From: Crocinitomicaceae bacterium | GTDB lineage: Bacteria; Bacteroidota; Bacteroidia; Flavobacteriales_D; Crocinitomicaceae | NCBI GenBank assembly: GCA_029254025.1 | Contig: JAQWYK010000014.1 | Coordinates: 1-57,319 of the forward strand | Length of the DNA: 57,319 bases | Direction of reading: 5' to 3' | In this document: positions 834 through 14,791 of the stretch, one piece after another | Numbering within the stretch: position 1 is the first letter of the stretch | How the letters are laid out: each line of letters begins with the position of its first letter | Notes under the pieces: generated by a model | Seen by the model: the letters and a program-made list of their open reading frames with translations, nothing else | What the model was told of the DNA's origin: nothing | The model's database searches: none | Position numbers and translations under genes: made by a program

Positions 834-1685
834 ATGATAAATAAAATTTTACAACTAAATATTTTATTACTGAACCTATTAGTAATATCATCTTGCAAAA
901 ACATAGAAAATCTGTCAAAACAAATTTGTATAGGAAATGATCCCAACTTCAAAATAGTTGCTCATTCAGATAGTGGATTTTCAAGTTTTAACCGAAAAGT
1001 AGTCGTTTTTGGAATTGATATATATGCTGTTGCCGCTGTAGAGGATGTCAAACTTTTGCACGCAGCAAATGTGATGGCTCAGTATCTTGACAATGATGAA
1101 GATAGAATTATAGACAACCAGTTAGTTTTGGAAAAAATGCTTGATAACAAAGCCTTTTTAGTTATGTGGAAAAAGGAAAGCGACTTAAATATTAATCCTC
1201 CCTCTGACAGACTTGGTCAAGATTTAGGCAACGATGAAACCAACCCTTCCTTTGTTTCAAATGGTAGAATAGGGCAATTTGATGCAGCACTGGAAGAGGT
1301 TTTACATATAATAAACAACGCGGGTCATTCTTATGCCTATCCTCAATATTTTGGCCTACATGGAGAATCTCAACTTGCAAATGCGATGGATATAGCAAGA
1401 GGTGGAAAGTTCTTAAATATCCCTAATTCTTATCCTGATAATGCATGGTATACCTATGATGATCAAACTTGTGATTACGCAGATTGTCAAACTATCGAAT
1501 ATTTATATTGGGCATTAACGTCAATGATGGGTGCTCAAGAGAATAGATTAAGTGATATTGGGCATGAATGGAAATTAAACACTAAATATTTAGTTGAAAG
1601 TACAGATTCTACAATCTTCTCGTTGTTAACTAATACTGCCTATAAAATGCCTAAAGTTTTACCCGATGGAACTTATAGACATTAA
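834..1685 (+). CDS. Putative lipoprotein of unknown function, possible metallohydrolase
   Basis: 283 residues. The N-terminus has a short hydrophobic stretch followed by a lipobox-like LVISSC, so it is probably lipidated at Cys21 and held in the envelope. The body has an acidic segment DNDEDRIIDN (about 87-96), a DLGNDETNPS segment, and EEVLHIINNAGH (about 154-165). That last segment has the glutamate/histidine spacing of a possible metal site but is not a canonical HExxH. I recognise a conserved, functionally unassigned family through the MDIARGG, WYTYDDQTCDY and QENRL blocks, but know no established role. The gene is clearly AT-rich compared with mnmE before it, and stands alone between a palindrome and a gene on the opposite strand. 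That suggests horizontal gain (inference). Confidence 0.7.
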   Translation: MINKILQLNILLLNLLVISSCKNIENLSKQICIGNDPNFKIVAHSDSGFSSFNRKVVVFGIDIYAVAAVEDVKLLHAANVMAQYLDNDEDRIIDNQLVLEKMLDNKAFLVMWKKESDLNINPPSDRLGQDLGNDETNPSFVSNGRIGQFDAALEEVLHIINNAGHSYAYPQYFGLHGESQLANAMDIARGGKFLNIPNSYPDNAWYTYDDQTCDYADCQTIEYLYWALTSMMGAQENRLSDIGHEWKLNTKYLVESTDSTIFSLLTNTAYKMPKVLPDGTYRH

Positions 1686-1834
1686 ATTAATGTGTTAACA
1701 ATACTATTCTCTTCGAGAAAACAAACTTTGTAACCCCGCACGGTGGGTAGCTTCAATCCGTTGATGTAGGTTTTTATGAGCTCAAGGTATAAATAAAAGG
1801 ATTCAAACAAAAACATACTTGACCCATCGCTTGC

Positions 1835-2626
1835 CTAATCTCCCCAAATTAATTCTACAAATTCGGGATGGTCTATAAAGGGATTACGATTCTTTTGATA
1901 ATGGAAGTAAATGATGTCGTTTCTTCTCCGTTCCCAATCATCTACGGGGTCTTCTTGGTGCCATTTATACAAATCGGAAAGCTTCGCATGAATCGGTAGA
2001 TTTGTTTTGTTATCCGAGGGAATAGAGTCAATGACTTCAAGATCGACTTCACCATTTTCGCCTTCATAGCGTGTTGCCATATAAAAAATCATTCGTGCTA
2101 CATCTCCTTTAACTTCGTCGCGCGGCTTCCACACCCATTGTGAAGAACTCCGGTAAGACCCAGTAGCGCCATCTCCATCTACATATTCCTCGTTGCATTC
2201 TGCGAACCAACGGTTATTTCGTGCGGAATTTACTGTGACATCTGCAGGACGAAGCGCATGTGCATCTGTTCCAGGGCCAGGTTTCGTACCAAATGCTCCC
2301 CTCGATTTGGCCCAAACATGCTCCCGGCTCCAACCATTTCCACCATCGTATTCCAAGGCGCCATTCTTAGACCAACCAGAATAGAGCAAGATTACGTTAT
2401 TCGTATCAATCGTATCCTGATCCGTATGCTTCAAGATATCCCATATATCCGTATCCCTACTGGTATATGGGAACTGCACATGCCCTTGAATGATATCATT
2501 GAGTGCTGCTTTCAATTCGGTTCCACTCAAACCAGCAGCATGATCATAATATCCCGGAGGAATTTGCCCATATCCGAGAAAATGAATGACCACAATGGCA
2601 CTGACTACTATTAGTTTGTTTAGCAT
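1835..2626 (-). CDS. Secreted endonuclease I family protein
   Basis: 263 residues with an N-terminal signal peptide ending near GYGQ (about 20). It belongs to the EndA/Vvn endonuclease I family, periplasmic or extracellular metal-dependent nucleases that cut DNA and often RNA without sequence specificity. Visible landmarks are NGWSREHVWAKS (about 97-108, with E102-H103 as the general-base region), DAHALRPADVTVNSARNN (about 121-138, with the metal-binding asparagine region), KGDVARMIFYMATRYEG, and the family-typical C-terminal NRNPFIDHPEFVELIW. The length fits a single-domain member; no T9SS tail is present, so export is probably to the periplasm. Transcribed alone. A likely role is nutrient scavenging from DNA. 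Confidence 0.92.
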   Translation of the reverse strand: MLNKLIVVSAIVVIHFLGYGQIPPGYYDHAAGLSGTELKAALNDIIQGHVQFPYTSRDTDIWDILKHTDQDTIDTNNVILLYSGWSKNGALEYDGGNGWSREHVWAKSRGAFGTKPGPGTDAHALRPADVTVNSARNNRWFAECNEEYVDGDGATGSYRSSSQWVWKPRDEVKGDVARMIFYMATRYEGENGEVDLEVIDSIPSDNKTNLPIHAKLSDLYKWHQEDPVDDWERRRNDIIYFHYQKNRNPFIDHPEFVELIWGD

Positions 2627-2742
2627 AACGGAAGTTCAAGTTCGAATATACGGAATTTTAGTACTCATTCTCCTTTGAAATAAATTGCGCTCTTCATTTA
2701 CGCCAATTTTCTAAAGGTATCTTTTAGCAGTAACACCAATGC

Positions 2743-3780
2743 TTATGCCTGCAACGAAAGTGCTGATATTCGGTTATGCATTACTTTGAACCATAGGGGT
2801 GGAACTAAAGCTAAGAGCATCATTCCAGGGTATCCAGTGGGCATTTGTGGGCTGTTGTTATGGTGGCGAAGAACTTGGTATTTTCGGCTAGAAATATAGT
2901 GGTGATCGGAATGTCTTGATAATTCGAATAACACAATACGTCCTAATGGATGATTAGAGTTCCATGAATGAATAGGCAGTGTTCGTTCATATTTCCCATT
3001 GACCAGTTTGCGCCGTAAACCATAATGTTCAATGTAATTCACGGTTTCAAGCAATAATATCCCAATAAAGGCGGAGGCAATAAAGAAACACATGATTTGC
3101 CATCCAAAAAATAGAAAGATTGTAATCAATAAAGTCGCTTGAATCAGTTGAAAGCGGATCATTTCATTCCTTACTGAAAAGAACGATTTCTTTTGAATGG
3201 ATAACCGTTTTTTCTCCAGTTTCCAGGCAGAAAGGTATGAGAAAAGAATGGAGCGACACCAGAATACATAAATCGGTTCTCCATATTTACTCGAAGCTGG
3301 ATCATCTGGTGTGCTCACACGTGTGTGATGTCCTCTATTATGCTCAATAAAGAAATGCATGTACAAGCTGGAAAGTAAAAGCAGTTTACTCAATACGTGT
3401 TCAAAGATACTGTTTCTATGCCCGAGTTCATGTGCTGCGTTGATTCCAATAATTCCACAGGCTAAGCCCATGCTTAAAATCATTCCGAACCGCTCCCAAC
3501 TTGGCATGTCATAGGTCATTTGAAAGAGAAAAAAAACAAGTAATGCATATTGCATCGGCACCAATAAATAGATGATGAGGTCATACACCCCACGTTTTTC
3601 TGAAATAAGTTGTTCTTCTTGGGATAAGTTTTTAATGGAAGGACGTAAAAATAATTCGAGAATTGGAAATATCACGAATAACACCACAACAGGTAAAAAG
3701 ACCCAATAGCTGCCTAAAAGCAATGCAGTAAAAACAAGTGCTACAGGGATATATGCAGCAAGATATTTGAATGCGTTCAT
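2743..3780 (-). CDS. alkB: AlkB-type alkane 1-monooxygenase
   Basis: 345-residue integral membrane non-heme diiron hydroxylase that oxidises medium-chain n-alkanes to 1-alkanols at the inner membrane. The histidine boxes are all present in order: HELGH (117-121), EHNRGHH (146-152), the AlkB-specific NYIEHYG (248-254) and RHSDHH (289-294). The NYIEHYG block separates it from fatty-acid desaturases and xylene monooxygenase-only relatives. Several hydrophobic spans lie at about 8-45, 66-90, 100-115 and 215-245. It is a little shorter than many AlkB proteins (370-410). No rubredoxin or rubredoxin reductase gene is nearby and none is fused, so electron partners must be encoded elsewhere. The 200 bp upstream is shared with the divergent PAP2 gene. 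Confidence 0.93.
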   Translation of the reverse strand: MNAFKYLAAYIPVALVFTALLLGSYWVFLPVVVLFVIFPILELFLRPSIKNLSQEEQLISEKRGVYDLIIYLLVPMQYALLVFFLFQMTYDMPSWERFGMILSMGLACGIIGINAAHELGHRNSIFEHVLSKLLLLSSLYMHFFIEHNRGHHTRVSTPDDPASSKYGEPIYVFWCRSILFSYLSAWKLEKKRLSIQKKSFFSVRNEMIRFQLIQATLLITIFLFFGWQIMCFFIASAFIGILLLETVNYIEHYGLRRKLVNGKYERTLPIHSWNSNHPLGRIVLFELSRHSDHHYISSRKYQVLRHHNNSPQMPTGYPGMMLLALVPPLWFKVMHNRISALSLQA

Positions 3781-3980
3781 AGTCTAAAAAGATTGAACTA
3801 ATTTAGAAATTATTTTTTAACCTGTGAAGATGATGAACAAGTTTTAGTGGGTGCAAAATAATGGAGGTCCATCCTCTTTGTAGAACTGATATTGGAATAA
3901 TTAGCATAATAATTTAGTTTTTAACGTGAAATGAGTTTTACCTCAACCTATAGTAGTGACTTTTTTGGTAGTATTGTGGC

Positions 3981-4589
3981 ATGAAATGTATCCTATTCAT
4001 AGTAGCCGCTCTTCTAATTCATCTTAGTCTAATGGCACAGCAATTTGATATTGATGTGCTGCGCAAGGCGAACTTGGAGAGAAATACCCGGCTCGATCGT
4101 CCATTTTTGTTCATTACGCATTCAGCATCCGTTATTGAGTTTGGTGCACCTGTGATTTTATTAAGTGCAGGTTTTATTCAGAAAGATAGTATTCTGAAAC
4201 AGCAGGGGTGCATGCTATTTGGTGCATTGGCCGTCACAGGAGGGATTACTTTAGGTATGAAGTATGCTATCAATCGTCCGCGCCCCTTTGTTACTTACCC
4301 AGACATTCTGCAATTAACAGATGCGGGGAGTCCTGCGTTTCCTTCAGGGCATACATCCATGGCATTTAGTGCAGCCACATCGTGGTCGCTGGCGTGTCCA
4401 AAATGGTACGTCATCGCACCATCGATGCTATGGGCCAGTGCTGTGGGCTATTCACGGATGCATTTAGGCGTACATTATCCTTCCGACGTGTTTGTAGGCG
4501 CCCTTGTAGGAGCTGGTAGTGCTTGGTTGAGTAAAGTATTGACAGAAAAGATTCAGTATCGAAGAAAAGTTGGAAGGGCTAAAGCCTGA
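3981..4589 (+). CDS. PAP2-family membrane phosphatase
   Basis: 202 residues, with an N-terminal signal-like segment (1-20, ending LSLMAQ). The three phosphatase motifs of the PAP2 superfamily are complete: K94...R101P102 (KX6RP), PSGH at 121-124, and SRMHLGVHYPSD at 158-169 (SRX5HX3D). Such enzymes remove phosphate from lipid or isoprenoid phosphates, for example phosphatidate, undecaprenyl pyrophosphate or lipid A, with the active site facing the periplasm. The substrate cannot be told from sequence. It is divergent from alkB and convergent with the MBOAT gene, with a possible terminator just downstream. Confidence 0.9.
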   Translation: MKCILFIVAALLIHLSLMAQQFDIDVLRKANLERNTRLDRPFLFITHSASVIEFGAPVILLSAGFIQKDSILKQQGCMLFGALAVTGGITLGMKYAINRPRPFVTYPDILQLTDAGSPAFPSGHTSMAFSAATSWSLACPKWYVIAPSMLWASAVGYSRMHLGVHYPSDVFVGALVGAGSAWLSKVLTEKIQYRRKVGRAKA

Positions 4590-4644
4590 AAGTCGGTTAC
4601 CTTGGATTAACGTCGTTGACCGAGTGATTTTGTGGCGACCAAAG

Positions 4645-4674
4645 GAGCCATAGCATCGGACTGAAGGCTCTTTT
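4645..4674 (+). terminator. Possible terminator after the PAP2 gene
   Basis: gagcc (4645-4649) can pair with ggctc (4666-4670), followed directly by tttt. An alternative pairing of agcatcg (4652-4658) with cgatgct (4675-4681) competes with it, so two mutually exclusive hairpins are possible. The stem is short and the loop long, so this is tentative. Confidence 0.4.
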
Positions 4675-4682
4675 CGATGCTC

Positions 4683-6365
4683 CTAGAACTGGAAATAAAT
4701 AAATGGTTGCAGGTCGCTGGAAATAAATTGCAGGATCACAAAAACGGTAGCCACAGCTACGAGTGCTTTTATTGGAAGTGGAGCTTTAATGAAAAGCTCT
4801 TGGTACCATGTCTTTGTTTTCGAAGGAAGCCAGTGGATGACAAATCCAAAAAGCATGGCGATGAACACCCATTTGTAGTTGAGTAGGATTTCCCAAGCGA
4901 GATTGAGTTGGAAATTCGTTTGTATGCTGTGCCACATTTGCTGGACTACGTCTAGATCTCGTGCACGGAAGAAGATCCGGGTAAACGTGATAAAAATAAA
5001 GGTGAAACCAATCGCATAGATGCGTACCAGCCATCCGTTTTTATTCTTAAAGGGGCTGATTTTCGCCCAGTATTTATGCCAAACAACTCCAAACCCGTTC
5101 AATCCTCCCCAGATGATGAAGTTCCATGATGCGCCGTGCCATAGTCCGCCGTAAAGCATGGTGATCATAAGATTGATGTCACGAATGATTTTTTTCTTGA
5201 GCCCACTGAAGATTTGAGCTAATGTAAACAATAGTAATACAGAGCCACCAATAATAAATAGAGCACGTATGCTGCCGATCAGGAGCAAAATCACGGATAG
5301 AATCAATACCACAGAAATCCAAGTTCCCCACGTGGCCCGCCGGTTCCCACCTAAGGGGATGTATAAATAATCTTTGAGCCAAGTGGATAAAGATATGTGC
5401 CAACGTCCCCAAAACTCTGAAGTGGACTGCGCTTTATACGGAGAGTTAAAGTTGGTTGGTAAATAAAACCCCATGAGCATCGCAACACCAATCGCGATGT
5501 CAGTATATCCCGAGAAGTCGCAATAGACTTGCAATGAGTAACCAAAGAGTGCCATCACACTTTCAAAGCCGGTGTACATTCCTGGGTTGTCAAATACACG
5601 GTCAATGAAGTTTACTGCAATAAAATCGCCGAGTACCATCTTCTTTACTAATCCATTGAGAATTAAAAATACAGCTAAGCCAAACGTACGTTGTGAAATA
5701 GAGTAGGGTTTATAGATTTGAGGTACGAACTCATTCGCACGTACAATTGGTCCTGCTACTAACTGTGGGAAGAAGGACACGTAAAACCCGAAGTCTATGA
5801 GGTTCTTTACGGGTTCAATGCGCTCCCGATAGATGTCTACTGTGTAACTGATGGTTTGAAAGGTAAAGAACGATATTCCGACAGGCAGAATGATACGGTT
5901 GATGTCGAAGCCAGTTCCGAGCCATTCATTCGACCAATAAGCAAGGTGGTTTAAGACTTCGTAATCTGTTTGGAAGATTTGATTGTAGCTGTCTGTGAAG
6001 AAATACGCGTATTTGAAGTAGACCAAGACTCCGAGGTTTATGGTAACGCTCAGCACCACTAGCCAGAGGCGTTTGGTTTTGGATAAACTCTTGAAAACTG
6101 CCTTGCCGATATAATAATCGGTGACGGTGGAGAAGAGCAGCAAGAAGAAAAATAGTTCGCTCGTCTTGTAATAAAAGAATAAACTGATTAAAAAGAGATA
6201 CCCATTGCGCAGCGCAATTTTCTTATAGATAATCGCATAGATGGTATAAGCAATGAGAAAGAATCCCCAGAAATTGAAACGGGTAAAAATCATCGGAGAC
6301 AGCGGATTGTAGGTCAACGCTTGCTCCAAGTATGTCCAGATCATCGCTACATCGAACTCGCCCAT
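4683..6365 (-). CDS. MBOAT-family O-acyltransferase (AlgI/PatA-like)
   Basis: 560-residue polytopic membrane protein of the MBOAT superfamily, which moves acyl groups (usually acetyl) across the inner membrane to surface polysaccharides, peptidoglycan or alginate. Seen: many transmembrane segments, the motif KDYLYIPLGGNRR typical of the bacterial AlgI/DltB branch, and GLWHGASWNFIIWGGLNG with the catalytic histidine near residue 410. It is the last gene of a four-gene minus-strand cluster. Its ATG overlaps the stop of the upstream SGNH gene by one base, so translational coupling is likely. An MBOAT transporter plus SGNH enzymes is the layout of PatA/PatB and AlgI/J/X-type O-acetylation systems. 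The acyl acceptor is not proven; the LysM protein at the head of the cluster favours peptidoglycan. Confidence 0.93.
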   Translation of the reverse strand: MGEFDVAMIWTYLEQALTYNPLSPMIFTRFNFWGFFLIAYTIYAIIYKKIALRNGYLFLISLFFYYKTSELFFFLLLFSTVTDYYIGKAVFKSLSKTKRLWLVVLSVTINLGVLVYFKYAYFFTDSYNQIFQTDYEVLNHLAYWSNEWLGTGFDINRIILPVGISFFTFQTISYTVDIYRERIEPVKNLIDFGFYVSFFPQLVAGPIVRANEFVPQIYKPYSISQRTFGLAVFLILNGLVKKMVLGDFIAVNFIDRVFDNPGMYTGFESVMALFGYSLQVYCDFSGYTDIAIGVAMLMGFYLPTNFNSPYKAQSTSEFWGRWHISLSTWLKDYLYIPLGGNRRATWGTWISVVLILSVILLLIGSIRALFIIGGSVLLLFTLAQIFSGLKKKIIRDINLMITMLYGGLWHGASWNFIIWGGLNGFGVVWHKYWAKISPFKNKNGWLVRIYAIGFTFIFITFTRIFFRARDLDVVQQMWHSIQTNFQLNLAWEILLNYKWVFIAMLFGFVIHWLPSKTKTWYQELFIKAPLPIKALVAVATVFVILQFISSDLQPFIYFQF

Positions 6366-7597
6366 CAGTTTTCTCGCATTAAATAATTTTCATACCCTTC
6401 CATCAAGGCATTGAACAGTAAGTCCCCCACCAAATAGTATCCATCGAAGGTAAAGTGGATACGGTCTTTTTTGAGCAGGCCTCGCGCCATCCAAATGTTC
6501 GCGCTCTTCAGACCTCCCATCACTGCGAATAAGTCCCATACGGCACCGTCGTATTTCTTGGCTAAGTCGTACATCGCTTCTTGCACGATAACGCCATTGG
6601 TATTTAGTCGCTTGTTGTATCCGTAGCTATCGTTATTCGTAAGGAATACAAAAAACGTATTCGGATTCACGCGCGTGATTTGAGCAATGATACTGTCGTA
6701 GTTTTGAATGAAGCTTGCTTTGGTGAAATTTCCACCGTGAGCGTCATTGATTCCAATTCCGAAGAATACGATGTCGGGTTGTAGGACGTGCATCTGTTCC
6801 TCAAAGAGCGCACATTTCAAGTATGACCCTGTGCTTGCTCCGTTCACGCCAATAGAGTTGTAGGTGATGCCTGACTCGTCGTTCTCCAAGTAGAGGCCAT
6901 ACAGAATAAAGCGTTCTTGCAAAGAGTCGGTTTTGATAAACCCGAATTCTAAGGTGTCGGTTGTTGTGAACAATTCAATGATGGAATAGCCCGCTGCGGA
7001 ATCATGGTGAATCACTGCGTTGGTATCTCGACCGAGCCATTGAAGCTGAAAAGATAAGCTGTCGGCTTCGTGTAATACTTTAATACGCCTGAATGTGTGC
7101 GGTAGGTTTTTCGTTCGGTCGAAGGCGATTCGCACAGTTGCGCTGGTATCAGCGGTAAAGACGCTAATCCCTGAAGCTCCCAGTTTCGTATCCAACGTTC
7201 TGTCTACGTTGCGTACTTTGTCCCAATTCCCTTGGTAGTCTACTTTGTAATCGTAGGGTCCGTTGGTTTTCGCAATTCTAAACGGAAAAACCAATCCACG
7301 CGCACCTTGCTGATTGGGAGCATATGACCCCAATAATTGCCGCATGCGATTCGAGTATATATCTGCTTGAATGTGGGAACCTCCAAAATGAACTACATTC
7401 ACATTTCCTTCCCCCCAAAAAAGGAGGTCTTCCATCTTTTTGTAGAATGTATTGGCATATTTCATTTCTCCCGGAAAAGAAAGGGAGGAACGGTCCAAGT
7501 GGATGTAATCAGCACTGGGTATTTCAGCACGGATAGGTTGAGCGAACGCATTCAGCTGCCACAGTATTCCAAGAAGTAGGAGCGAGGTGTATCTCAT
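6365..7597 (-). CDS. SGNH/GDSL-family hydrolase, exported
   Basis: 410 residues with a signal peptide (1-19, ending AFA|Q). The SGNH blocks are complete: block I FGGSHIQAD with nucleophile S74, block II around VNGAS (G253), block III GIGIND with N284, and block V DRIH with D378 and H381. Such enzymes are esterases or transacylases; next to an MBOAT protein they usually transfer or remove O-acetyl groups in the periplasm. It shares the VMGG...W...D-x-I-HF tail with the neighbouring 500-residue SGNH protein, so the two are probably paralogues. Six bases separate it from that gene, and it overlaps the MBOAT gene by one base. Whether it is the transferase (PatB-like) or the esterase (Ape1-like) cannot be decided from sequence. 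Confidence 0.85.
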   Translation of the reverse strand: MRYTSLLLLGILWQLNAFAQPIRAEIPSADYIHLDRSSLSFPGEMKYANTFYKKMEDLLFWGEGNVNVVHFGGSHIQADIYSNRMRQLLGSYAPNQQGARGLVFPFRIAKTNGPYDYKVDYQGNWDKVRNVDRTLDTKLGASGISVFTADTSATVRIAFDRTKNLPHTFRRIKVLHEADSLSFQLQWLGRDTNAVIHHDSAAGYSIIELFTTTDTLEFGFIKTDSLQERFILYGLYLENDESGITYNSIGVNGASTGSYLKCALFEEQMHVLQPDIVFFGIGINDAHGGNFTKASFIQNYDSIIAQITRVNPNTFFVFLTNNDSYGYNKRLNTNGVIVQEAMYDLAKKYDGAVWDLFAVMGGLKSANIWMARGLLKKDRIHFTFDGYYLVGDLLFNALMEGYENYLMREN

Positions 7598-7603
7598 CGT
7601 GCG

Positions 7604-9106
7604 TCAGTCTTTTTTCAATTTTATCCGCTGGAGGTACTGTTCGTAGTCCAATAGCAAGGATTCGTAAAATATTTCAGCAATTTTTTCAGCTCCACGCGAA
7701 GAAAAGTGGATGTAGTCTTTCGCTGCCAATGGGGGATTGGCTTCAACCCAACTCGGCATGGAATTTTCTCCTCCCATCACTTCGTACATATCAAAGTATG
7801 CACCTCCCATTTCAAACACCGCATTTTTAAGTGCATCTCGCACATGTGGCAAGTTTGGATAGGTTTGCATTTTACCATTGATGTTCGTAGACATATCAGA
7901 AGGACCAATCACCAGGAAGGACGCATTCGGACATAGGCTTTTGATGCGTTGCATGTTCGCCAAGAATTCTTTCCCATAGCTTTCCGCCTTTTCTTTGGAT
8001 TTAATGTAGGGCATAACGTTTCCTCCGTATTGCAGGATAATCAGTTTTGGATTAAGCGCAGCGTACATCTGTCGAGAAATGTCCTTGTTTAACTTACGAA
8101 AGATAGTTCCTGAGGATCCACGCATAGAAATATTATCCATATGCACACCATTCGGTGTTTCCATGGATATTCCATAGACTTCGGGACTGGATTTTCCGGA
8201 AAATGTAACTTTAAGCTTACTGGGAGATTTCTCTAAGTCGAATGTGACGATTTGTAACATTTGATTGCTGTCCACCACTTGTGTGGATTCGACACCGTCA
8301 TAATCCAGCTTCACTTCCGAAGGGGCTTTGTTGTGTCCCATAAAAATGCGGACGCGCGTAAAGTTCCGTACAGAAGAATGTGCTTTTGATCGTGGGGTAA
8401 ATGTGGTAAATCCGCTGTTGAATGATTTCTCTACAAGAACACTGTCGATGCTGTCGGAAACGTGATGTACAAACTTACACATGATTGCCGTAGCTCCGTA
8501 GCGGCCATCTGTAGCTCTTCCCGATTTTCCAAATGCTGTGTATCGTGACCAGTTTTCTGATGTATATTGAGCAACAGATCTACTTTGTGTAATACCTTTC
8601 GGGGCCATAATTCCCACGCCAGCACCACCAAATTTCGCTTGTAGTCGCTGACGCACATACGATGTGATACGATCTTCTTCTATTTGAGAATCGCCGTAGT
8701 GTAGGATACGGATTGATGGATTATTAGAAGACGCATTGGCCAAAGCCTTGAAAAACATATCTAGTCCATCACGGTCGTCGTTTCCGTATTGCAAGCGTGT
8801 AGGATCAGCAGCCGCGATTTGCGCAGCAGCTTCTAGACTATCTTGTTCGGATTGAAGCTTCAATTCTTTAAGGCGTGTTTGGTAAGCCTCTAGACTATCT
8901 TTTCTCGCCTGGATTAAAGCTTCTACGTCAATTTTATCTTCATCAGCATGGAGGATGTCGTTTACAGAAACGAAGTAAAACGTTTTTCCGCCAACCGTAA
9001 AACCAGTTTCCGGAATTACCACTGCGAAGATGGTCAATACACCGATTACAGCAGCGATGAAGAGTGCTATTTTCGCAGGGTGGAATATGGGCTGCTGTTC
9101 TTCCAT
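7604..9106 (-). CDS. Membrane-anchored SGNH/GDSL-family protein
   Basis: 500 residues. A cytoplasmic tip is followed by one transmembrane helix (about 13-32). A predicted coiled coil (about 60-98, rich in E, K, Q and L) then leads to an SGNH domain (about 130-490). Block I is HYGDSQIEED with S140, block II is near SMRGSSG (G330), block III QYGGN ends in N363, and block V DYIHF gives D464 and H467. A roughly 150-residue insert, probably beta-rich, lies between blocks I and II. The signal-anchor topology places the catalytic domain in the periplasm, as expected for a partner of an MBOAT transporter. The start codon follows the stop of the LysM gene with no gap, so the two are surely co-transcribed. 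Confidence 0.85.
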   Translation of the reverse strand: MEEQQPIFHPAKIALFIAAVIGVLTIFAVVIPETGFTVGGKTFYFVSVNDILHADEDKIDVEALIQARKDSLEAYQTRLKELKLQSEQDSLEAAAQIAAADPTRLQYGNDDRDGLDMFFKALANASSNNPSIRILHYGDSQIEEDRITSYVRQRLQAKFGGAGVGIMAPKGITQSRSVAQYTSENWSRYTAFGKSGRATDGRYGATAIMCKFVHHVSDSIDSVLVEKSFNSGFTTFTPRSKAHSSVRNFTRVRIFMGHNKAPSEVKLDYDGVESTQVVDSNQMLQIVTFDLEKSPSKLKVTFSGKSSPEVYGISMETPNGVHMDNISMRGSSGTIFRKLNKDISRQMYAALNPKLIILQYGGNVMPYIKSKEKAESYGKEFLANMQRIKSLCPNASFLVIGPSDMSTNINGKMQTYPNLPHVRDALKNAVFEMGGAYFDMYEVMGGENSMPSWVEANPPLAAKDYIHFSSRGAEKIAEIFYESLLLDYEQYLQRIKLKKD

Positions 9107-10570
9107 TTAAGGCAAATATATGGTAAGTTTTTGACCGGGTTGAATATTCGTTCCAATCTTATTCCACTTCATGATGTCTGAATCTTTTACCTTGTATTTT
9201 CTTCCTATGTCCCAAAGGGTGTCCCCAGATTTTACGGTATAGGATATTTTCTTTCCAGTAGGTATCTCTGTTGGCGTATTCACGCGCGGTTCTTCGCTAG
9301 GTGTGACAGGTGCAGGTGTTTCAACGGTCACCTTCACACCGCGGGCAGCAGCATCACGTTGACTTCTGCTCAATTGTTCAAACTGAGCGAAAGAAGCACT
9401 GTCGCTACACGGAACTTTAAAGAAAACATCCCATCCTTTGGGGAGGGTGTTGCTGGTGAATCCGTTCAGTTGCTTGATTTCGTGCAAGCTGGGTCCAAAC
9501 CAATACGTGAGGTCGCGGAAATATTCACCCCTTTCCGTACAGTAAAAGACATAGCAGCTGTCGTGAGTATTCGGGAAGTAGCGGGCACGAAGATGTGCAT
9601 AAATTGAATCCTTAAGTAGGGCATACGACATTTCTTTCTCTGCCGGAATCAAAATTGGCGCTCCTGGAGGCACAACCTGGTTGAAGTATCGGGCATTCAT
9701 GAGTCGAAATGTTGGTAGATTCAACTCAAGAACAGATGCTATTTGTTCTGCATGTAAGGTATCGCTTGTTAGAATAGTTGTTGTTTCCCACTTCGGTTGA
9801 AGGGCAAAGCCTTTTACTCCCCACGCTTCCCGTCGATGATGGATGAAGGCCATTGCTAAGAGTGCAGGGTAGAAATCCCGATCGCGGTGTTGAAGATGTG
9901 CATAGCGCTCCCAGTAGTTGGTCGCCTCAGGTGCTGATTGGTTAGCCTTTCGAACGGTGCTGGCACCAAGCATGAGCGCACTTAATTGTTCACTGGGTTG
10001 TTCGAATTTCTGTCTAAGATCACTGAAGTAAAGAGTTGTAGCCTTTATTAATGAAGAGAAATTAACCCGATCATCCGTGTATTCGTTCAATTCAACGTCG
10101 TAATTCAGTGCTATCATGGCATTCAACCCAATCGAAAAGAAGTCGTTTTTATTTTTAGTTGTAGGCATTAAATGAATGCGCGATAGGAATAGGTATTGCA
10201 TCCATGAAGGAGTTGTTTCAGTAAAAGCACCGTTCTCCTGTTGAAGATGTTCAAACAACCCAAAGAGTACACGGTAATTTACCGTTGGTTGACTGGTAAA
10301 AAAATCAATGTATTCATCAATGAGCGGATCGTAACCATCATAGAGTACGCCGAATTGTTTTTTTAAATATGTATCTAACTCTAATTGTGTGTAGGAAGGA
10401 AAGTCTTTGTATTTTTTCTCCTTGGCAGTTTGAGGAGTGAAAGTATACAAGTTTTTAACTTGCTGTGCTTGTTGTGCGAGCGCATTCTTGAGCAGGGCTT
10501 GATACTGATCATCCACAGCAAAGGCGCTGGGAAGCATATAATAAACTAAAACGAACAGAACGTACTTCAT
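9107..10570 (-). CDS. LysM protein with a degenerate MltD-like lytic transglycosylase core
   Basis: 487 residues with a signal peptide (about 1-18). The C-terminus (441-486) is a clear LysM domain with VKSGDTLWDIGRKY, and 341-387 looks like a second, weaker LysM. Residues about 95-250 follow the layout of MltD: MLGASTVRKANQSAP (200-214) sits where MltD has its YNAGPGNVRKA segment, and NYWERYAHLQ...DFYPALLAMAF (218-242) matches the FWE-Y-LP-ETR-YVP-LA region. The segment that should carry the catalytic glutamate (ESxFxPxAxSxxGAxGLWQ) reads LSRIHLMPTTKNKN (129-142) and keeps almost none of it. I therefore read it as a non-catalytic murein-binding protein. It heads the SGNH-SGNH-MBOAT cluster and may tether or direct that machinery to peptidoglycan (inference). 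Confidence 0.8.
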   Translation of the reverse strand: MKYVLFVLVYYMLPSAFAVDDQYQALLKNALAQQAQQVKNLYTFTPQTAKEKKYKDFPSYTQLELDTYLKKQFGVLYDGYDPLIDEYIDFFTSQPTVNYRVLFGLFEHLQQENGAFTETTPSWMQYLFLSRIHLMPTTKNKNDFFSIGLNAMIALNYDVELNEYTDDRVNFSSLIKATTLYFSDLRQKFEQPSEQLSALMLGASTVRKANQSAPEATNYWERYAHLQHRDRDFYPALLAMAFIHHRREAWGVKGFALQPKWETTTILTSDTLHAEQIASVLELNLPTFRLMNARYFNQVVPPGAPILIPAEKEMSYALLKDSIYAHLRARYFPNTHDSCYVFYCTERGEYFRDLTYWFGPSLHEIKQLNGFTSNTLPKGWDVFFKVPCSDSASFAQFEQLSRSQRDAAARGVKVTVETPAPVTPSEEPRVNTPTEIPTGKKISYTVKSGDTLWDIGRKYKVKDSDIMKWNKIGTNIQPGQKLTIYLP

Positions 10571-10694
10571 GCTACAAAAATAAACAGAAAGGATTCCCTA
10601 CATTGGTCAACGAACGGATGTTTTAAACATTTTACTGTAGAGAAAAAGGTATACCGATGAACGATGAATAATTAAAGCTCTACTGACTAAATCG

Positions 10695-10725
10695 TTGGTT
10701 AATTTGAACGTTCTGTGTAAATTAG
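10695..10725 (+). promoter_or_regulatory. Bacteroidota-type promoter candidate (TTG-N20-TAAATTAG)
   Basis: TTG at 10695-10697 and TAAATTAG at 10718-10725, twenty bases apart, against the phylum consensus TTG / TAnnTTTG (one mismatch in the -7 box). The box ends only 14 bases before the chosen ATG at 10740, so the leader would be very short; moderate support. Confidence 0.4.
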
Positions 10726-10739
10726 CAAAAAAAAACGCT

Positions 10740-11789
10740 ATGAAAAAACAACTACTTGTAGGTCTTTCCTTGTTGACAGTGGGAGCAAGCTTTGCTCAGA
10801 TCACCATCAATGCGAATGATATCATTGGATTTGGGGAATTTGTTGAATTAACAACGGATACGATTCCGACGATCATACACACTGCGAATGGTCCGGATCA
10901 AACATGGAACTATACTTCGTTAAATAGTCATGTTGTATCTGAATTTGGATTCGGTGCACCAAGTTGGTACGACGGAGATTTAGAATTTCCGAATGCAACC
11001 TTGGCATGGTTTGACATTGAAACGAATACCACAGCGTTTTTCAATAAATCGATAGATGCATTAGATGTACTAGGGATTTACGGAGATTTTCTAGAAACGG
11101 GTACTCCGCAAGCACTTAAATTCGATCAATTTGACAGACAATTGAGCTTTCCTTCTACGTATCAAACGGAATTTTTCAATACCTATACGTTCGGTTTTAC
11201 GCTGGACGGGGCAGCATTTAGTTTAGACTCTGTAGTCATCGATGGCACTTCTGATAAGACTTCATTGGCGGATGCATGGGGAACGTTGACAACTCCGTTT
11301 GGAACGTTCGATGTGATTCGTCAAGCTGTATACGAAGCAACAACGACAGTTGTGGATGGCTACTTATTTGGTGCTTCAGTGTTTAATGACACTCAAGTGG
11401 ATGAAACGTATACGTATACGTTTTGGACGAATGATGCAGGATCGCGTTATGCTGTATTGGAATACACATATGATCCAGCAATTTCAGCGATTACTGAAGT
11501 GACTTGGCAGAGTGGTGCTCCAACGCTTTCTATTCAAGAAGCAGTAGAAATAGCGAACATAGTGAACGTTTTCCCAAACCCAGCAAATGATCAATTAACG
11601 CTTGAAGTAGCTGAAGGGAATTATGAGGTAGCGATTATTGATGCGATGGGAAGAGAAGTATCTACATTACACATCGATGCATCAAATAACCGTATCGCGA
11701 CAACTAACTTATCCAATGGAGTATATTCATTGCGTATTTCCAGCGAAACAGGAGTAGTTGATGTTCAACGTTTTGTTGTGCAGCATTAG
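10740..11789 (+). CDS. T9SS type A sorting-domain secreted protein of unknown function
   Basis: 349 residues from the ATG at 10740. An upstream in-frame TTG (10695) lies inside the promoter candidate and would put 15 polar residues before the signal peptide, so I reject it. The signal peptide MKKQLLVGLSLLTVGASFAQ is typical. The central part is a beta-rich, Thr- and Asp-rich domain without a family I recognise. The last 75 residues form the type A Por-secretion domain: VFPNPAND, then VAIIDAMGREV, NLSNGVYSLRIS and a basic end. This predicts export across the outer membrane by the type IX system and attachment to the surface or release. Transcribed alone or with the small membrane gene 31 bp downstream. 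Confidence 0.85.
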   Translation: MKKQLLVGLSLLTVGASFAQITINANDIIGFGEFVELTTDTIPTIIHTANGPDQTWNYTSLNSHVVSEFGFGAPSWYDGDLEFPNATLAWFDIETNTTAFFNKSIDALDVLGIYGDFLETGTPQALKFDQFDRQLSFPSTYQTEFFNTYTFGFTLDGAAFSLDSVVIDGTSDKTSLADAWGTLTTPFGTFDVIRQAVYEATTTVVDGYLFGASVFNDTQVDETYTYTFWTNDAGSRYAVLEYTYDPAISAITEVTWQSGAPTLSIQEAVEIANIVNVFPNPANDQLTLEVAEGNYEVAIIDAMGREVSTLHIDASNNRIATTNLSNGVYSLRISSETGVVDVQRFVVQH

Positions 11790-11820
11790 GTCAAAGTTAT
11801 TTCTAAAATTTAATAAATAA

Positions 11821-12132
11821 ATGGAGGCACGTTCGAAGGTTGTATTTAACTCAAAAAATCGATTTATTATTTTATTGTTGGCCAGTATGAGTTTATTGCT
11901 CGTTCCTGCGGTTGCAATGCTTTTTTCAAGCGAAGTAGTTTGGACTCCCTATGATTTTGCTATTGCGACTGTGGTATTGCTCGGAACGGTGTTGCTTGCG
12001 GAGCTGATATTGCGCATGTTTCCAAGAAAGAAACAACGGATCTACTTAATCGCACTCTTGTTTATTTTATTTGGAGTGCTCTGGACTGAGATGGCGGTGG
12101 GTGTGTTTGGATCTCCTATTGCGGGAACCTAA
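11821..12132 (+). CDS. Small three-helix membrane protein, function unknown
   Basis: 103 residues with three hydrophobic segments at about 15-35, 44-66 and 75-95. The pattern EVVWTPYDFAIATVVLLGT followed by an ELILR segment, a basic loop and a final AVGVFGSP belongs to a family of short inner-membrane proteins common in Bacteroidota, with no assigned role. Located 31 bp after the T9SS gene. Its stop codon overlaps the stop of the convergent hydroxylase gene by four bases, leaving no room for a terminator between them. Confidence 0.7.
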   Translation: MEARSKVVFNSKNRFIILLLASMSLLLVPAVAMLFSSEVVWTPYDFAIATVVLLGTVLLAELILRMFPRKKQRIYLIALLFILFGVLWTEMAVGVFGSPIAGT

Positions 12133-12980
12133 TTATTTAGTTTTTCCCTCCAAGCTGGTCCTTTAAGGATACATCCAATCTTTTGTCTAATCGAATAATT
12201 CGGGTTCATGACATCTTTACCTATCGAAACCCATTCGTGAAATGCAATATACAGAGGATTAAAGGTTTGTATGTTTTTAGTTAAACCATATTTTACCTTT
12301 TCTTCACGTAGTTCAGGTTGAAATGTTCCGAAGATTTTGTCCCAGATGATAAAGATGCCTGCGTAGTTTTTATCCAAGTAGATTGGGTTAGATCCATGGT
12401 GAACACGGTGATGCGAAGGAGTGTTCATAATAGCCTCAAACCACCGCGGAAGTTTATCGATGAGCTCGGTGTGGATCCAATATTGATACAATAAACTTAT
12501 CGCCATTTGTGTAAAAATCATCACTGGATGAAACCCGAGTAGTGGAAGAATCAAATAAAAGATAAAAGTGAAAAAGCCACCTGTCCAAGTTTGGCGCAGT
12601 GCTGTGCTTAAGTTATAACGTTCGGAGGAGTGGTGTACCACATGCGAAGCCCAAAACAAGCGACTTTCATGCCCTAACCGATGCGCCCAGTAATAGCAGA
12701 AATCATCTGCAAAGAGAATGATTAACCAGGTCCACCATGCAAATGGGAGTGTGGTAATACGTATGTTTTCATAGATGAATGTAATGACAAATGCAACGAT
12801 TAATTTGCTAATAAACCCAATGGCTACGTTACCTAAGCCCATGGTTATAGAGGTAGCGGCATCTTTGACCAAGTAGCTCCCCGGTTTTTTTCGGGAAATG
12901 ATGATTCCTTCAATGATAACGGTTGTTGCGAAAATGGGAATCGCATAAAGGATTAAATCAGGTATGTTGGGAATTTCCAT
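12129..12980 (-). CDS. Sterol desaturase / fatty acid hydroxylase superfamily membrane enzyme
   Basis: 283-residue integral membrane diiron enzyme. Histidine motifs in order: HRLGH (100-104), HVVHH (113-117), a lone H170 and HHRVHH (190-195), the superfamily pattern. Four or so transmembrane segments lie at about 8-28, 55-75, 80-97 and 140-170. The HESRLFWASHVVHHSSERYN block and the C-terminal NYAGIFIIWDKIFGTF block resemble bacterial alkylglycerol-monooxygenase-like or carotenoid/lipid hydroxylase members. The substrate cannot be assigned; a membrane lipid is the safest guess. It lies 15 bp downstream of the nucleoside phosphorylase gene and may share its transcript. Confidence 0.88.
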   Translation of the reverse strand: MEIPNIPDLILYAIPIFATTVIIEGIIISRKKPGSYLVKDAATSITMGLGNVAIGFISKLIVAFVITFIYENIRITTLPFAWWTWLIILFADDFCYYWAHRLGHESRLFWASHVVHHSSERYNLSTALRQTWTGGFFTFIFYLILPLLGFHPVMIFTQMAISLLYQYWIHTELIDKLPRWFEAIMNTPSHHRVHHGSNPIYLDKNYAGIFIIWDKIFGTFQPELREEKVKYGLTKNIQTFNPLYIAFHEWVSIGKDVMNPNYSIRQKIGCILKGPAWREKLNN

Positions 12981-12995
12981 GTTTTTAAAAGCGAA

Positions 12996-13862
12996 TTAGA
13001 TGCAATCCAACACGTATTCGATTAAGGTACGGATACGTGCTTCATAATTACTGGAGAACTCCTTTTTCCTTCGGTTAGCTAGACCCAAGCAAATGGCTGC
13101 TGCTTTATGGCCCAAGCTCTTAGACAAGGCGAAAAGCGCAGAGCATTCCATTTCTAAATTCGTAAAACGGTGTTCCCCTAAACGAAAATCAGAAAAGGAG
13201 TTCAGCATGTTCTCCTCCGCCAAGGGTAGACGAAGCTTTCTACCTTGTGGCCCGTAAAATCCGGATGCGGTAATCGTGATTCCTTTGACGACTTCTGTCG
13301 ACGCTAATCGTGCTACAAGCTCTGTGTTTGCGGCTGTTAGATAGGGGTGGATTTTTTCCGGAAGCGCTGTCGTTTTCTCAATTTCCTCAAGTAATGCAGC
13401 GTCTTCTTGATCAATATTAAGTTGATAAAAATGACCGAGATTATCGATTCCCATGGCGTGGGAGGAAAGAATGAAACTATCAATTGGAATATCGTCTTGG
13501 AGGATGCCACAGGTTCCTATACGCACGATTTCCAAAACTACTTTCTCCTTTTTCTCTTGGCGTTGATTGAAGTTGATGTTTACCAGCGCATCTAACTCAT
13601 TCAATACGATATCAATATTGTCAGTACCAATTCCTGTTGAAACAACGGATAGGTGTTTTCCTTTGTAAGTTCCTGTATGACAGCTGAATTCGCGGTGTTG
13701 GCTTTTGTGGTTAACCTCATCGAAGTAATTCGAAACAACTTCAACCCTAGCTTGATCACCGACAACTATAATTTTATGGGCCAATTCATCTGGGGTTATT
13801 CCAAGGTGATAGATTTGACCTTCTTGCGTCAAAATTAATTCGGAGGGTAAAAATTCTTCCAT
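12996..13862 (-). CDS. Nucleoside phosphorylase (PNP/UDP family)
   Basis: 288 residues, a cytoplasmic enzyme of purine or pyrimidine salvage that splits nucleosides with phosphate into base and ribose-1-phosphate. The PNP_UDP_1 fold is shown by the N-terminal IIVVGDQARVE phosphate-binding stretch, STGIGTDNIDIVLNEL, RIGTCGILQ, and the ribose-binding NLEMECSALFAL near 235-246. The ITASGFYGPQGRKLRL segment resembles the uridine-phosphorylase-like branch of Bacteroidota. I would not fix the base specificity from sequence alone. Its start is followed upstream by a terminator hairpin that closes the DUF4197 gene, so it probably has its own promoter in 13900-13977. Confidence 0.88.
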   Translation of the reverse strand: MEEFLPSELILTQEGQIYHLGITPDELAHKIIVVGDQARVEVVSNYFDEVNHKSQHREFSCHTGTYKGKHLSVVSTGIGTDNIDIVLNELDALVNINFNQRQEKKEKVVLEIVRIGTCGILQDDIPIDSFILSSHAMGIDNLGHFYQLNIDQEDAALLEEIEKTTALPEKIHPYLTAANTELVARLASTEVVKGITITASGFYGPQGRKLRLPLAEENMLNSFSDFRLGEHRFTNLEMECSALFALSKSLGHKAAAICLGLANRRKKEFSSNYEARIRTLIEYVLDCI

Positions 13863-13870
13863 GCTTCAAC

Positions 13871-13898
13871 AAAAAACCACCTACAACATTTTAGGTGG
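13871..13898 (-). terminator. Rho-independent terminator of the DUF4197 gene
   Basis: Read on the minus strand: a seven-base perfect stem (13892-13898 with 13877-13883), an eight-base loop, then six Ts (13871-13876). It lies downstream of the DUF4197 stop and ends nine bases before the next start codon. Confidence 0.8.
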
Positions 13899-13977
13899 CT
13901 TTAAAGATATAAAATCTGTTTAATTATCGCCGTAAAGTCAGTGACATGTACTCATAAAAACGTGTGATTTGTTCGTA

Positions 13978-14724
13978 TTAGTTAGTCAAGGAACCAAATA
14001 CTTTTGAAAGTAAATCTGTAACACGGGCCGCAGGGTCTTTTCGAATTTTGTTTTCTTCTTTCTCAACCATTAGGAATAAACCACTAATCGCACGCTCTGT
14101 AACATATTTGTTCAAATCCGTGTCTACCTTGTCACCACCTGTAAAGGTCATCGCTTGATTGTATTTGGTCATTACAGGATTCCAGTAATCGGTTAATTTT
14201 ACTTTTTCAATTGAGGCTTGCACTTTTGGTGAAAAAGCCGCTACCAATTGACTCGTCGTGTTGTCTTTCAGGAATTTAGTCGCTGCTCCTTCACCGCCAT
14301 TTAGTATGGCAAACCCATCACTAATGGACATGTTTTTGATTGCGTTTATGAAGATTGGAGTAGCCTCTTTTGCAGCGTCCTCAGCGGCTCTGTTTAAGGT
14401 TTCTGTGATTTTTACTACTTGGTCACTCAAAATAGGTTTATCTTGTGCCCATTCTTTCATTTTGATAGCACTCTCCGGGAAAGGCAACTTGATTTCTTGA
14501 TTCCCTAAAAATCCATCTGTTACTGAGGTGAAGTCAACAGCGTTGGTGATCCCTACGGTCAGCGCTTCTTTTAATCCGCTGATTACCTCGCCGTTGGTAA
14601 GCTTGTTTGTTTCTCCCTCAGTTGTTGGGGTCAATAGGATGTTAGCAGTTTCATTGAGCACATCGCAGGCAGTAAGTGTCACAATCAACGAACCAGCCAA
14701 GATGTTTTTAATAATATTTCTCAT
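13978..14724 (-). CDS. DUF4197 lipoprotein
   Basis: 248 residues from the ATG at 14724. An upstream in-frame start (14748) would add eight residues ahead of the signal sequence and is less likely. The signal peptide ends in a lipobox VTLTAC (Cys about 20), so the protein is a lipoprotein. The DUF4197 family, widespread in Proteobacteria and Bacteroidota, is recognised by GLKEALTVGITNAV, the FLGNQEIKLPFP block, MKNMSISDGFAILNGGEGAATKFLK and the alternating Arg/Glu helices at the end. No biochemical role is established. Divergent from cinA with about 67 bp between starts. Confidence 0.88.
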   Translation of the reverse strand: MRNIIKNILAGSLIVTLTACDVLNETANILLTPTTEGETNKLTNGEVISGLKEALTVGITNAVDFTSVTDGFLGNQEIKLPFPESAIKMKEWAQDKPILSDQVVKITETLNRAAEDAAKEATPIFINAIKNMSISDGFAILNGGEGAATKFLKDNTTSQLVAAFSPKVQASIEKVKLTDYWNPVMTKYNQAMTFTGGDKVDTDLNKYVTERAISGLFLMVEKEENKIRKDPAARVTDLLSKVFGSLTN

Positions 14725-14791
14725 GTCAATTAGTTTTTTTTCAAACATACGAATAAATTTACCGCATCAAATCAAAAGTAATACCAAATTC

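Follow-up and report, generated by a model that had tools for sequence, protein, structure and literature searches.

What do four closely packed genes at positions 4683-10570 of a 57,319-nucleotide stretch of Crocinitomicaceae bacterium DNA (contig JAQWYK010000014.1, positions 1 to 57,319; the whole stretch is hereafter the window) accomplish together? Open reading frame (ORF) coordinates confirm the arrangement given in the original prediction: four minus-strand genes with 0, 6 and -1 bp between them that encode, in order of transcription, a LysM protein, two SGNH proteins (SGNHa, then SGNHb) and an MBOAT protein, and we infer that the four are co-transcribed. The last three genes constitute a core that has been known since 2005. 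The newly found part is the head gene, which encodes an MltD-like lytic transglycosylase without its catalytic glutamate. We modestly favor the reading that the locus is an operon for the O-acetylation and de-O-acetylation of peptidoglycan, of the ape1b-ape1c-pat type with a head gene added, in which SGNHa would act as transferase, SGNHb as esterase and the head protein as an adaptor.

The cluster is not a product of chance, since SGNHa-SGNHb-MBOAT recurs in many genomes. In a census of the order, 129 of 199 genomes had a match to SGNHa, and in the neighborhoods of these 129 it was followed by both SGNHb and the MBOAT gene in 103, by the MBOAT gene without SGNHb in 11, by SGNHb without the MBOAT gene in 3 and by neither in 5 (in 4 others a contig end intervenes, and 3 were reclassified as having no SGNHa); being sampled by way of SGNHa, this census under-samples clusters that hold SGNHb and the MBOAT gene only. 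Among a second set of 80 loci, the best matches to this MBOAT, SGNHa was present in 73, cut off in 6 and absent from 1 (locus L034). SGNHb was present in 70 of them, cut off in 3 and absent from 7; in 6 of those 7 SGNHa adjoins the MBOAT gene, and these 6 include two Capnocytophaga sp. and one Capnocytophaga bilenii.

Conservation of the four-gene order had been set beforehand as a test of the original prediction, and the outcome is divided: the three-gene core is conserved, whereas the head gene was found in 28 of the 118 scorable clusters of the order census (directly before SGNHa in each; absent from 90, with 8 more cut and 3 without SGNHa), in 21 of the 67 scorable loci of the 80-locus set, and in 3 of the 30 short loci of a phylum-wide sample (L086, which is the window, L088 and L091). 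Related genomes occur among the 28, which are therefore not independent cases, and the same or nearly the same contigs recur across samples (L021/L116, L037/L118, L047/L117). Within the window's own family, of 68 clusters that could be scored, the head gene is confined to that of the window. It is also present in the second genome of the genus, G492, on a contig that is probably the same as that of locus L003 (Crocinitomicaceae bacterium DAH.14), where a near-identical operon was found. All four genes also stand together in Maribellus luteus (L066), a culturable relative not known to be pathogenic. The head gene occurs in 0 of 16 order clusters without SGNHb against approximately 28 of 102 with it (Fisher p 0.012), an association that we set aside because it is not phylogenetically independent and is contradicted by locus L075.

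Several lines of evidence identify the head protein as a member of the MltD family. A profile of the head-gene alignment matches the Pseudomonas aeruginosa MltD structure 8rhe at 3.3e-49 (profile positions 81-406), and the six best PDB matches to the model of the head protein (mean predicted local distance difference test score, pLDDT, 78.0) are all P. aeruginosa MltD (8rhf, 8rhi, 8rhe). MltD is thus closest in both fold and sequence family, and it shares the architecture of an SLT domain followed by LysM domains. The label pseudo-MltD in the original prediction proves right by the evidence of relatives and fold, but not by Pfam on the window protein itself: with E up to 0.01, Pfam SLT matches the 19 other members of a 20-protein alignment and leaves the window protein alone without a match. 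Pfam does recognize a LysM domain (3.9e-14), and by our reading of the alignment and model two further degenerate LysM-like segments precede it, at approximately residues 265-310 and 338-387.

The difference from MltD lies in the active site. The catalytic Glu of the ES motif is Arg in the window protein (FLSRIHLM), and the WQF and AYN motifs are gone as well, whereas the genome's own second MltD copy, on contig C22, has the active motifs SVIESGLR, GLWQF and AAYNA. Elsewhere in operons WQF and AYN are altered in most copies, and Glu is replaced in all 28 head genes of the order census (L 13, A 6, I 3, T 3, R 1, Q 1, S 1), in all three of the phylum-wide sample, and in 18 of the 21 in the 80-locus set, where it is kept in 2 and could not be aligned in 1. 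Only 2 of 42 operon head proteins retain it (near-copies included; one of the 42, L067, not aligned), namely those of L043 (Bacteroides sp. SM23_62_1; truncated by the contig end) and L075 (Bacteroidetes bacterium B13_G6). Separate MltD/SLT entries keep Glu in 20 of 20, although two of these are the same gene (L083/L158) and 16 were picked as best hits of a profile containing Glu-bearing rows and so were likely to be intact; the 21 non-operon entries of this comparison had included L138, an operon gene misfiled by the overlap limit. Proteins with an SLT-like match turned up in 199/199 genomes sampled from the order; the ordinary enzyme is therefore not absent. The head gene is, then, an MltD lytic transglycosylase whose catalytic Glu has been lost, and its cutting activity has presumably been lost with it.

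A tree of 50 SLT domains (34 from operons and 16 separate; near-copies above 95% merged, L067 and L085 left out) places the 16 separate MltD proteins on one side of a branch with support 97/86. The Glu-bearing copies of L043 and L075 adjoin the separate MltDs and the Glu-less operon copies lie beyond them, although long branches, of which the window's is the longest, leave the inner positions unsure. The most parsimonious account has an MltD copy entering the operon in active form and losing its Glu afterwards.

The two SGNH proteins are both of the Ape1 type, SGNHa by sequence and structural model and SGNHb as judged by sequence comparison. Pfam Lipase_GDSL_2 matches them at 5.6e-6 (under the curated cut-off) and 2.2e-12 respectively. 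In sequence searches SGNHa matches the peptidoglycan O-acetylesterase structure 4k3u, which we take to be from Neisseria meningitidis, at 1.1e-17 and SGNHb matches it at 1.7e-13; both also match Campylobacter jejuni Ape1 (8gkd, 8gld), and the SGNHa profile matches 4k3u at 8.1e-30. The SGNHa model (mean pLDDT 83.3) reaches a TM-score on target of 0.81-0.82 to 4k3u and shows the SGNH fold with an insert after block I that is found in Ape1. Structural comparison places 4k3u at Z 36.1 (root-mean-square deviation, rmsd, 2.6; 344 residues aligned) and the C. jejuni Ape1 entries at Z 31.4 and 31.2, with the first non-Ape1 entry at Z 15.5. There is no PatB chain among the 50 entries listed by VIA-align for this model, an absence that carries no evidential weight.

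The original prediction had all SGNH catalytic residues and the MBOAT histidine in place and SGNHa anchored in the membrane, and both statements hold. Among aligned relatives S140 of SGNHa is conserved in 73/74 and N363, D464 and H467 in 74/74, and in SGNHb S74 is conserved in 70/71 and N284, D378 and H381 in 71/71, the Asp and His forming block V; both proteins carry the Ser-Asp-His triad and the block III Asn of Ape1. Block I of SGNHb reads GGSH in the window, not GDSH, as it does in 91/110 SGNHb of the order census, and SGNHa has GDSQ in 119/126. The N-terminal hydrophobic helix of SGNHa, residues 6-39 by hydropathy and 10-30 in the model, is found in it alone of the two SGNH proteins; SGNHb and the LysM head protein start with segments that we read as signal-peptide-like.

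The MBOAT (Pfam 1.4e-22) is PatA-like by sequence. Among solved structures it is closest to DltB and a further teichoic-acid D-alanyltransferase, and it scores under the DltB equivalog cut-off (144 vs 375 bits). Histidines H323 and H410 are present in 82/82 relatives. The protein ends in FIYFQF, in agreement with the FXYXXF motif of PatA, and the Tyr of this motif is invariant in 82/82 relatives and in 114/114 MBOATs of the order census, 103 of which are strictly F-x-Y-x-x-F. The corresponding Tyr in PatA of C. jejuni undergoes auto-acetylation from acetyl-CoA, and PatB of N. gonorrhoeae acetylates chitopentaose from an acetylated FIYANF peptide (PMC12148441).

The core has a clear precedent. 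Weadge et al. (2005) described an ape1b-ape1c-pat cluster in Bacteroides thetaiotaomicron, B. fragilis and Porphyromonas gingivalis, and gave O-acetylated peptidoglycan as 27.0% in B. thetaiotaomicron and 69.4% in B. fragilis (PMC1199599). The order of two Ape1-type SGNH genes followed by an MBOAT gene is the same, and no Ape2 is listed for those species; here, by contrast, an MltD-like gene without catalytic Glu leads the operon, and SGNHa is proposed as a transferase where both SGNH proteins were called esterases. By order and sequence family SGNHa corresponds to ape1b and SGNHb to ape1c. This correspondence does not extend to the subfamily of SGNHb: Ape1c is distinguished in that paper by the lack of a segment of approximately 100 residues after motif I that Ape1a and Ape1b have, whereas in SGNHb block I (S74) and block II (G253) are approximately 180 residues apart. 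The idea of the original prediction that the layout was undescribed must therefore be given up for the three downstream genes, and it stands for the MltD-like head gene within the literature searched. By titles and the starts of abstracts of the best-matching papers listed, mostly outside subscription journals, we found nothing on this gene set in Bacteroidota beyond PMC1199599 and no description of a pseudo-transglycosylase tied to O-acetylation; PMC6174289 mentions neither 'Bacteroid' nor 'Porphyromonas', and the PatB of PMC11300592 is a different protein.

Because both SGNH proteins are Ape1-type, the MBOAT has the C-terminal motif of PatA, and Bacteroides with ape1b-ape1c-pat carry O-acetyl peptidoglycan, peptidoglycan O-acetylation, as originally proposed, is well supported by homology, and peptidoglycan is very probably the acetyl acceptor. 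Because there is no PatB in the cluster, either one of the two Ape1-type proteins must transfer acetyl or a PatB lies elsewhere. A PF13472 search of the genome returned SGNHb and two other SGNH proteins, one lipoprotein-like and one of 311 aa that looks to us like a GSCFA protein; since the search missed SGNHa itself, it is no proof that the genome has no PatB. We consider SGNHa the probable transferase because there is no PatB in the cluster, because it has a membrane anchor, and because it is the more constant partner of the MBOAT, which follows it in 114/129 clusters, including the 11 without SGNHb. A single N-terminal membrane helix and an MBOAT partner are also features of PatB. The assignment of Ape2 as PatB reportedly came after the work of Weadge et al. 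SGNHb is then the candidate esterase. The PatA-PatB-Ape1 operon of Neisseria and Campylobacter likewise combines an MBOAT with a C-terminal acyl-Tyr motif, an anchored SGNH protein and a periplasmic Ape1 (PMC12148441), but here the anchored protein is Ape1-type, with a carbohydrate-binding-like insert and an ordinary block II Gly, and the gene order is different.

In the mechanism that we envisage, the MBOAT would load acetyl from acetyl-CoA onto the Tyr of FIYFQF; SGNHa, its anchored neighbor in the inner membrane, would take the acetyl group on Ser140 and pass it to peptidoglycan, doing the job of PatB on an Ape1 fold; and SGNHb, secreted to the periplasm, would strip acetyl groups off again. 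The head protein, presumably unable to cut, may use its SLT groove and its LysM domains to hold glycan strands, and may dock or stimulate one of the Ape1-type enzymes (SGNHa or SGNHb) at the glycan. The analogy is with LtgA of N. meningitidis, which complexes with Ape1 and makes it more active on p-nitrophenyl acetate, not a substrate of LtgA (PMC7083599); a transglycosylase can accordingly help Ape1 without cutting. LtgA is an active enzyme of the Slt70 type, whereas the head protein is a degenerate protein of the MltD type encoded in the operon. We give the adaptor role about an even chance, or a little better. The gene for LtgA is not known to lie beside ape1.

The roles of the two SGNH proteins could be reversed, with SGNHb transferring acetyl together with the MBOAT and SGNHa serving as a membrane-anchored esterase. 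It is SGNHb that adjoins the MBOAT gene, with a 1-bp overlap, locus L034 has SGNHb and the MBOAT gene without SGNHa, and SGNHa has both an ordinary block II Gly and a true esterase as its best match. This exchange of roles nevertheless appears unlikely: the MBOAT gene occurs with SGNHa and no adjacent SGNHb in 11/129 clusters and 6/80 loci (SGNHb elsewhere in those genomes was not searched) against one locus of the reverse kind, the membrane helix is in SGNHa only, and GxND, a pattern that block III shows in many SGNH esterases, is found in 101/110 SGNHb, while 100/126 SGNHa have GGNxxP instead. It is rather improbable that the acceptor is a capsule, exopolysaccharide or lipopolysaccharide in place of peptidoglycan. 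AlgI, AlgJ and AlgX, an MBOAT and SGNH proteins, do acetylate another polymer, alginate. However, the SGNH proteins here are of the Ape1 type (AlgJ and AlgX were not compared directly), the head gene is of the MltD/LysM kind, and the Bacteroides clusters cited above accompany O-acetylated peptidoglycan. No polysaccharide gene, and no alginate gene, was found among the genes flanking the operon at 834-16033, the part surveyed for them out of the window and genome. This absence, together with the finding of a single PF03062 gene (two stretches of the same protein) in the genome of 2.70 Mb and 50 contigs, led us to reject acetylation of the alginate or capsule type as the main explanation.

The head gene might alternatively be a transglycosylase copy in decay, carried along in the operon with no role of its own, and its high divergence, its long branches in the tree and its absence from most scorable clusters would suit such a passenger. 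Yet the ratio of nonsynonymous to synonymous substitution (dN/dS, Nei-Gojobori) is 0.28, 0.10, 0.11 and 0.11 in four pairs, values well below 1 that argue against decay, although the first comes from few changes and the last two are near synonymous saturation. In the three pairs with all four genes scored the head gene exceeds its neighbors, except for SGNHb in the first pair (0.34, nine changes); it is thus looser than they are but constrained, under purifying selection. In 20 of 21 head-gene loci of the 80-locus set it ends -4 to 44 bp upstream of SGNHa (227 bp in L047). The reading frames are open over 367-552 aa, which in itself proves little since frameshifted copies would count as absent, and the same catalytic residue has been lost while the fold is retained. 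We rejected decay as the main explanation on the dN/dS of the four pairs and regard it as very improbable. Another possibility, which we would not expect to be correct, is that the head protein shields acetylated strands by competing with active MltD for glycan and gives no help to the SGNH enzymes: the same genome carries the intact MltD on contig C22, and O-acetylation itself blocks transglycosylases (PMC1199599). Nothing specific speaks against such shielding, and the linkage to SGNH genes is explained equally well by an adaptor.

Several observations weigh against the combined reading of transferase, esterase and adaptor. The absence of the head gene from 90 of the 118 scorable order clusters means that the chemistry does not need it, and the gene set is far from universal, with SGNHa in only 54 of the 296 genomes of the phylum-wide sample. 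The window's head protein is the most degenerate of its 20-member alignment, and its model fits MltD modestly (TM-score on target 0.46-0.60, rmsd 7.4-17.7). L043 and L075 keep Glu, and the L075 cluster has no SGNHb, contrary to the idea that a dead head protein always goes with SGNHb. L034, a Saprospiraceae metagenome-assembled genome, has SGNHb and the MBOAT gene at 3420-6356 and no SGNHa within 3.4 kb upstream. PatB replaces the block II Gly (by Ser or Asn) and has no carbohydrate-binding domain (PMC12148441), whereas SGNHa has the insert and keeps G330, aligned with the Gly of Ape1, in 74/74 relatives; there is thus no PatB-like active-site signature to mark it as a transferase. In the literature searched, moreover, we found no biochemistry for this operon.

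Which strands of peptidoglycan are open to cutting by lytic transglycosylases is determined by O-acetylation, and this poses the question of how the cell directs transferase and esterase to given strands. A transglycosylase fold that lacks Glu in every order cluster where it was found, encoded beside the acetylation enzymes, would physically link cutting and acetylation, and the idea drawn from LtgA and Ape1 would become testable in a system that joins the partners genetically and has already lost the catalytic residue. The gene set without PatB also raises the question of whether a protein with the Ape1 fold could serve as a transferase. A broader and more speculative proposal, which we advance tentatively and with more doubt than belief, is that in many Bacteroidota a dedicated pseudo-lytic transglycosylase, turned from wall cutter into reader of glycan strands, aims an acetyltransferase/esterase pair at selected strands and so sets where active transglycosylases may cut, the role of PatB having been taken over by an Ape1-fold protein, with transferase and esterase as paralogues.

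Table 1. Features of the operon, in window coordinates, with the basis of each assignment
Feature	Coordinates	Strand	Basis
Head gene, degenerate MltD-type lytic transglycosylase with LysM, 487 aa, first in operon	9107..10570	-	SLT in aligned relatives; best PDB fold MltD; motifs lost relative to the genome's own MltD
SLT-like domain of head protein, residues 88-275; R at catalytic Glu position, FLSRIHLM (active form xxIESxLx)	9746..10309	-	
LysM of head protein recognized by Pfam, residues 444-484	9119..9241	-	Pfam
SGNHa, 500 aa, Ape1 fold, membrane-anchored, candidate O-acetyltransferase, 'Ape1b' position	7604..9106	-	Ape1 matches 4k3u, 8gkd, 8gld; model
SGNHa N-terminal membrane helix, residues 10-30	9017..9079	-	Model, hydropathy
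SGNHa beta-rich insert between SGNH blocks I and II, residues ~187-316, at the site of the Ape1 carbohydrate-binding module	8159..8548	-	Model
SGNHb, 410 aa, predicted secreted Ape1-type SGNH protein, candidate O-acetyl-peptidoglycan esterase, 'Ape1c' position	6365..7597	-	Sequence comparison
MBOAT, 560 aa, predicted PatA-type acyl carrier	4683..6365	-	Pfam, sequence comparison
MBOAT C-terminal FIYFQF, fits PatA FXYXXF acyl-tyrosine motif	4686..4703	-	Tyr conservation; motif function from PMC12148441

The flanks at 834-16033 hold one gene without a Pfam match, at 834-1685, whose 283-aa product has a signal-like N-terminus, and genes for endonuclease I, a fatty-acid desaturase, a PAP2 phosphatase, a protein ending in a type IX sorting tail, a small protein whose match falls under the threshold, a fatty-acid hydroxylase, a phosphorylase, DUF4197 and CinA. 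A scan for promoters and terminators gave matches no more numerous than in shuffled sequence. On the minus strand TATTTTTG, at 10575-10582, ends 4 bases ahead of the head-gene ATG and may be there by chance; it resembles the Bacteroidota -7 promoter motif, and a transcript started from it would have almost no leader.

Variants of the cluster were seen in several other genomes. In L072 (Mariniphaga) the gene that lies 3 bp upstream of SGNHa, where the head gene would stand, encodes a DPP-IV type peptidase (6364-8499). L020, assigned to a proteobacterium (Candidatus Competibacteraceae), carries the whole operon of the Bacteroidota type including the head gene, perhaps through a binning error or transfer. 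L154 and L155 (genomes G447 and G485) have an SGNHb-like protein of 475-481 aa and a short MBOAT (464 aa) approximately 1.3 kb away, which looks like a different MBOAT-SGNH pair. Between SGNHb and the MBOAT gene, L004 encodes a 217-aa protein (9152-9805) that by eye, with no family search, we take to be a HAD phosphatase, and in L005-L008, L011 and L017 the same two genes are 0.6-0.9 kb apart.

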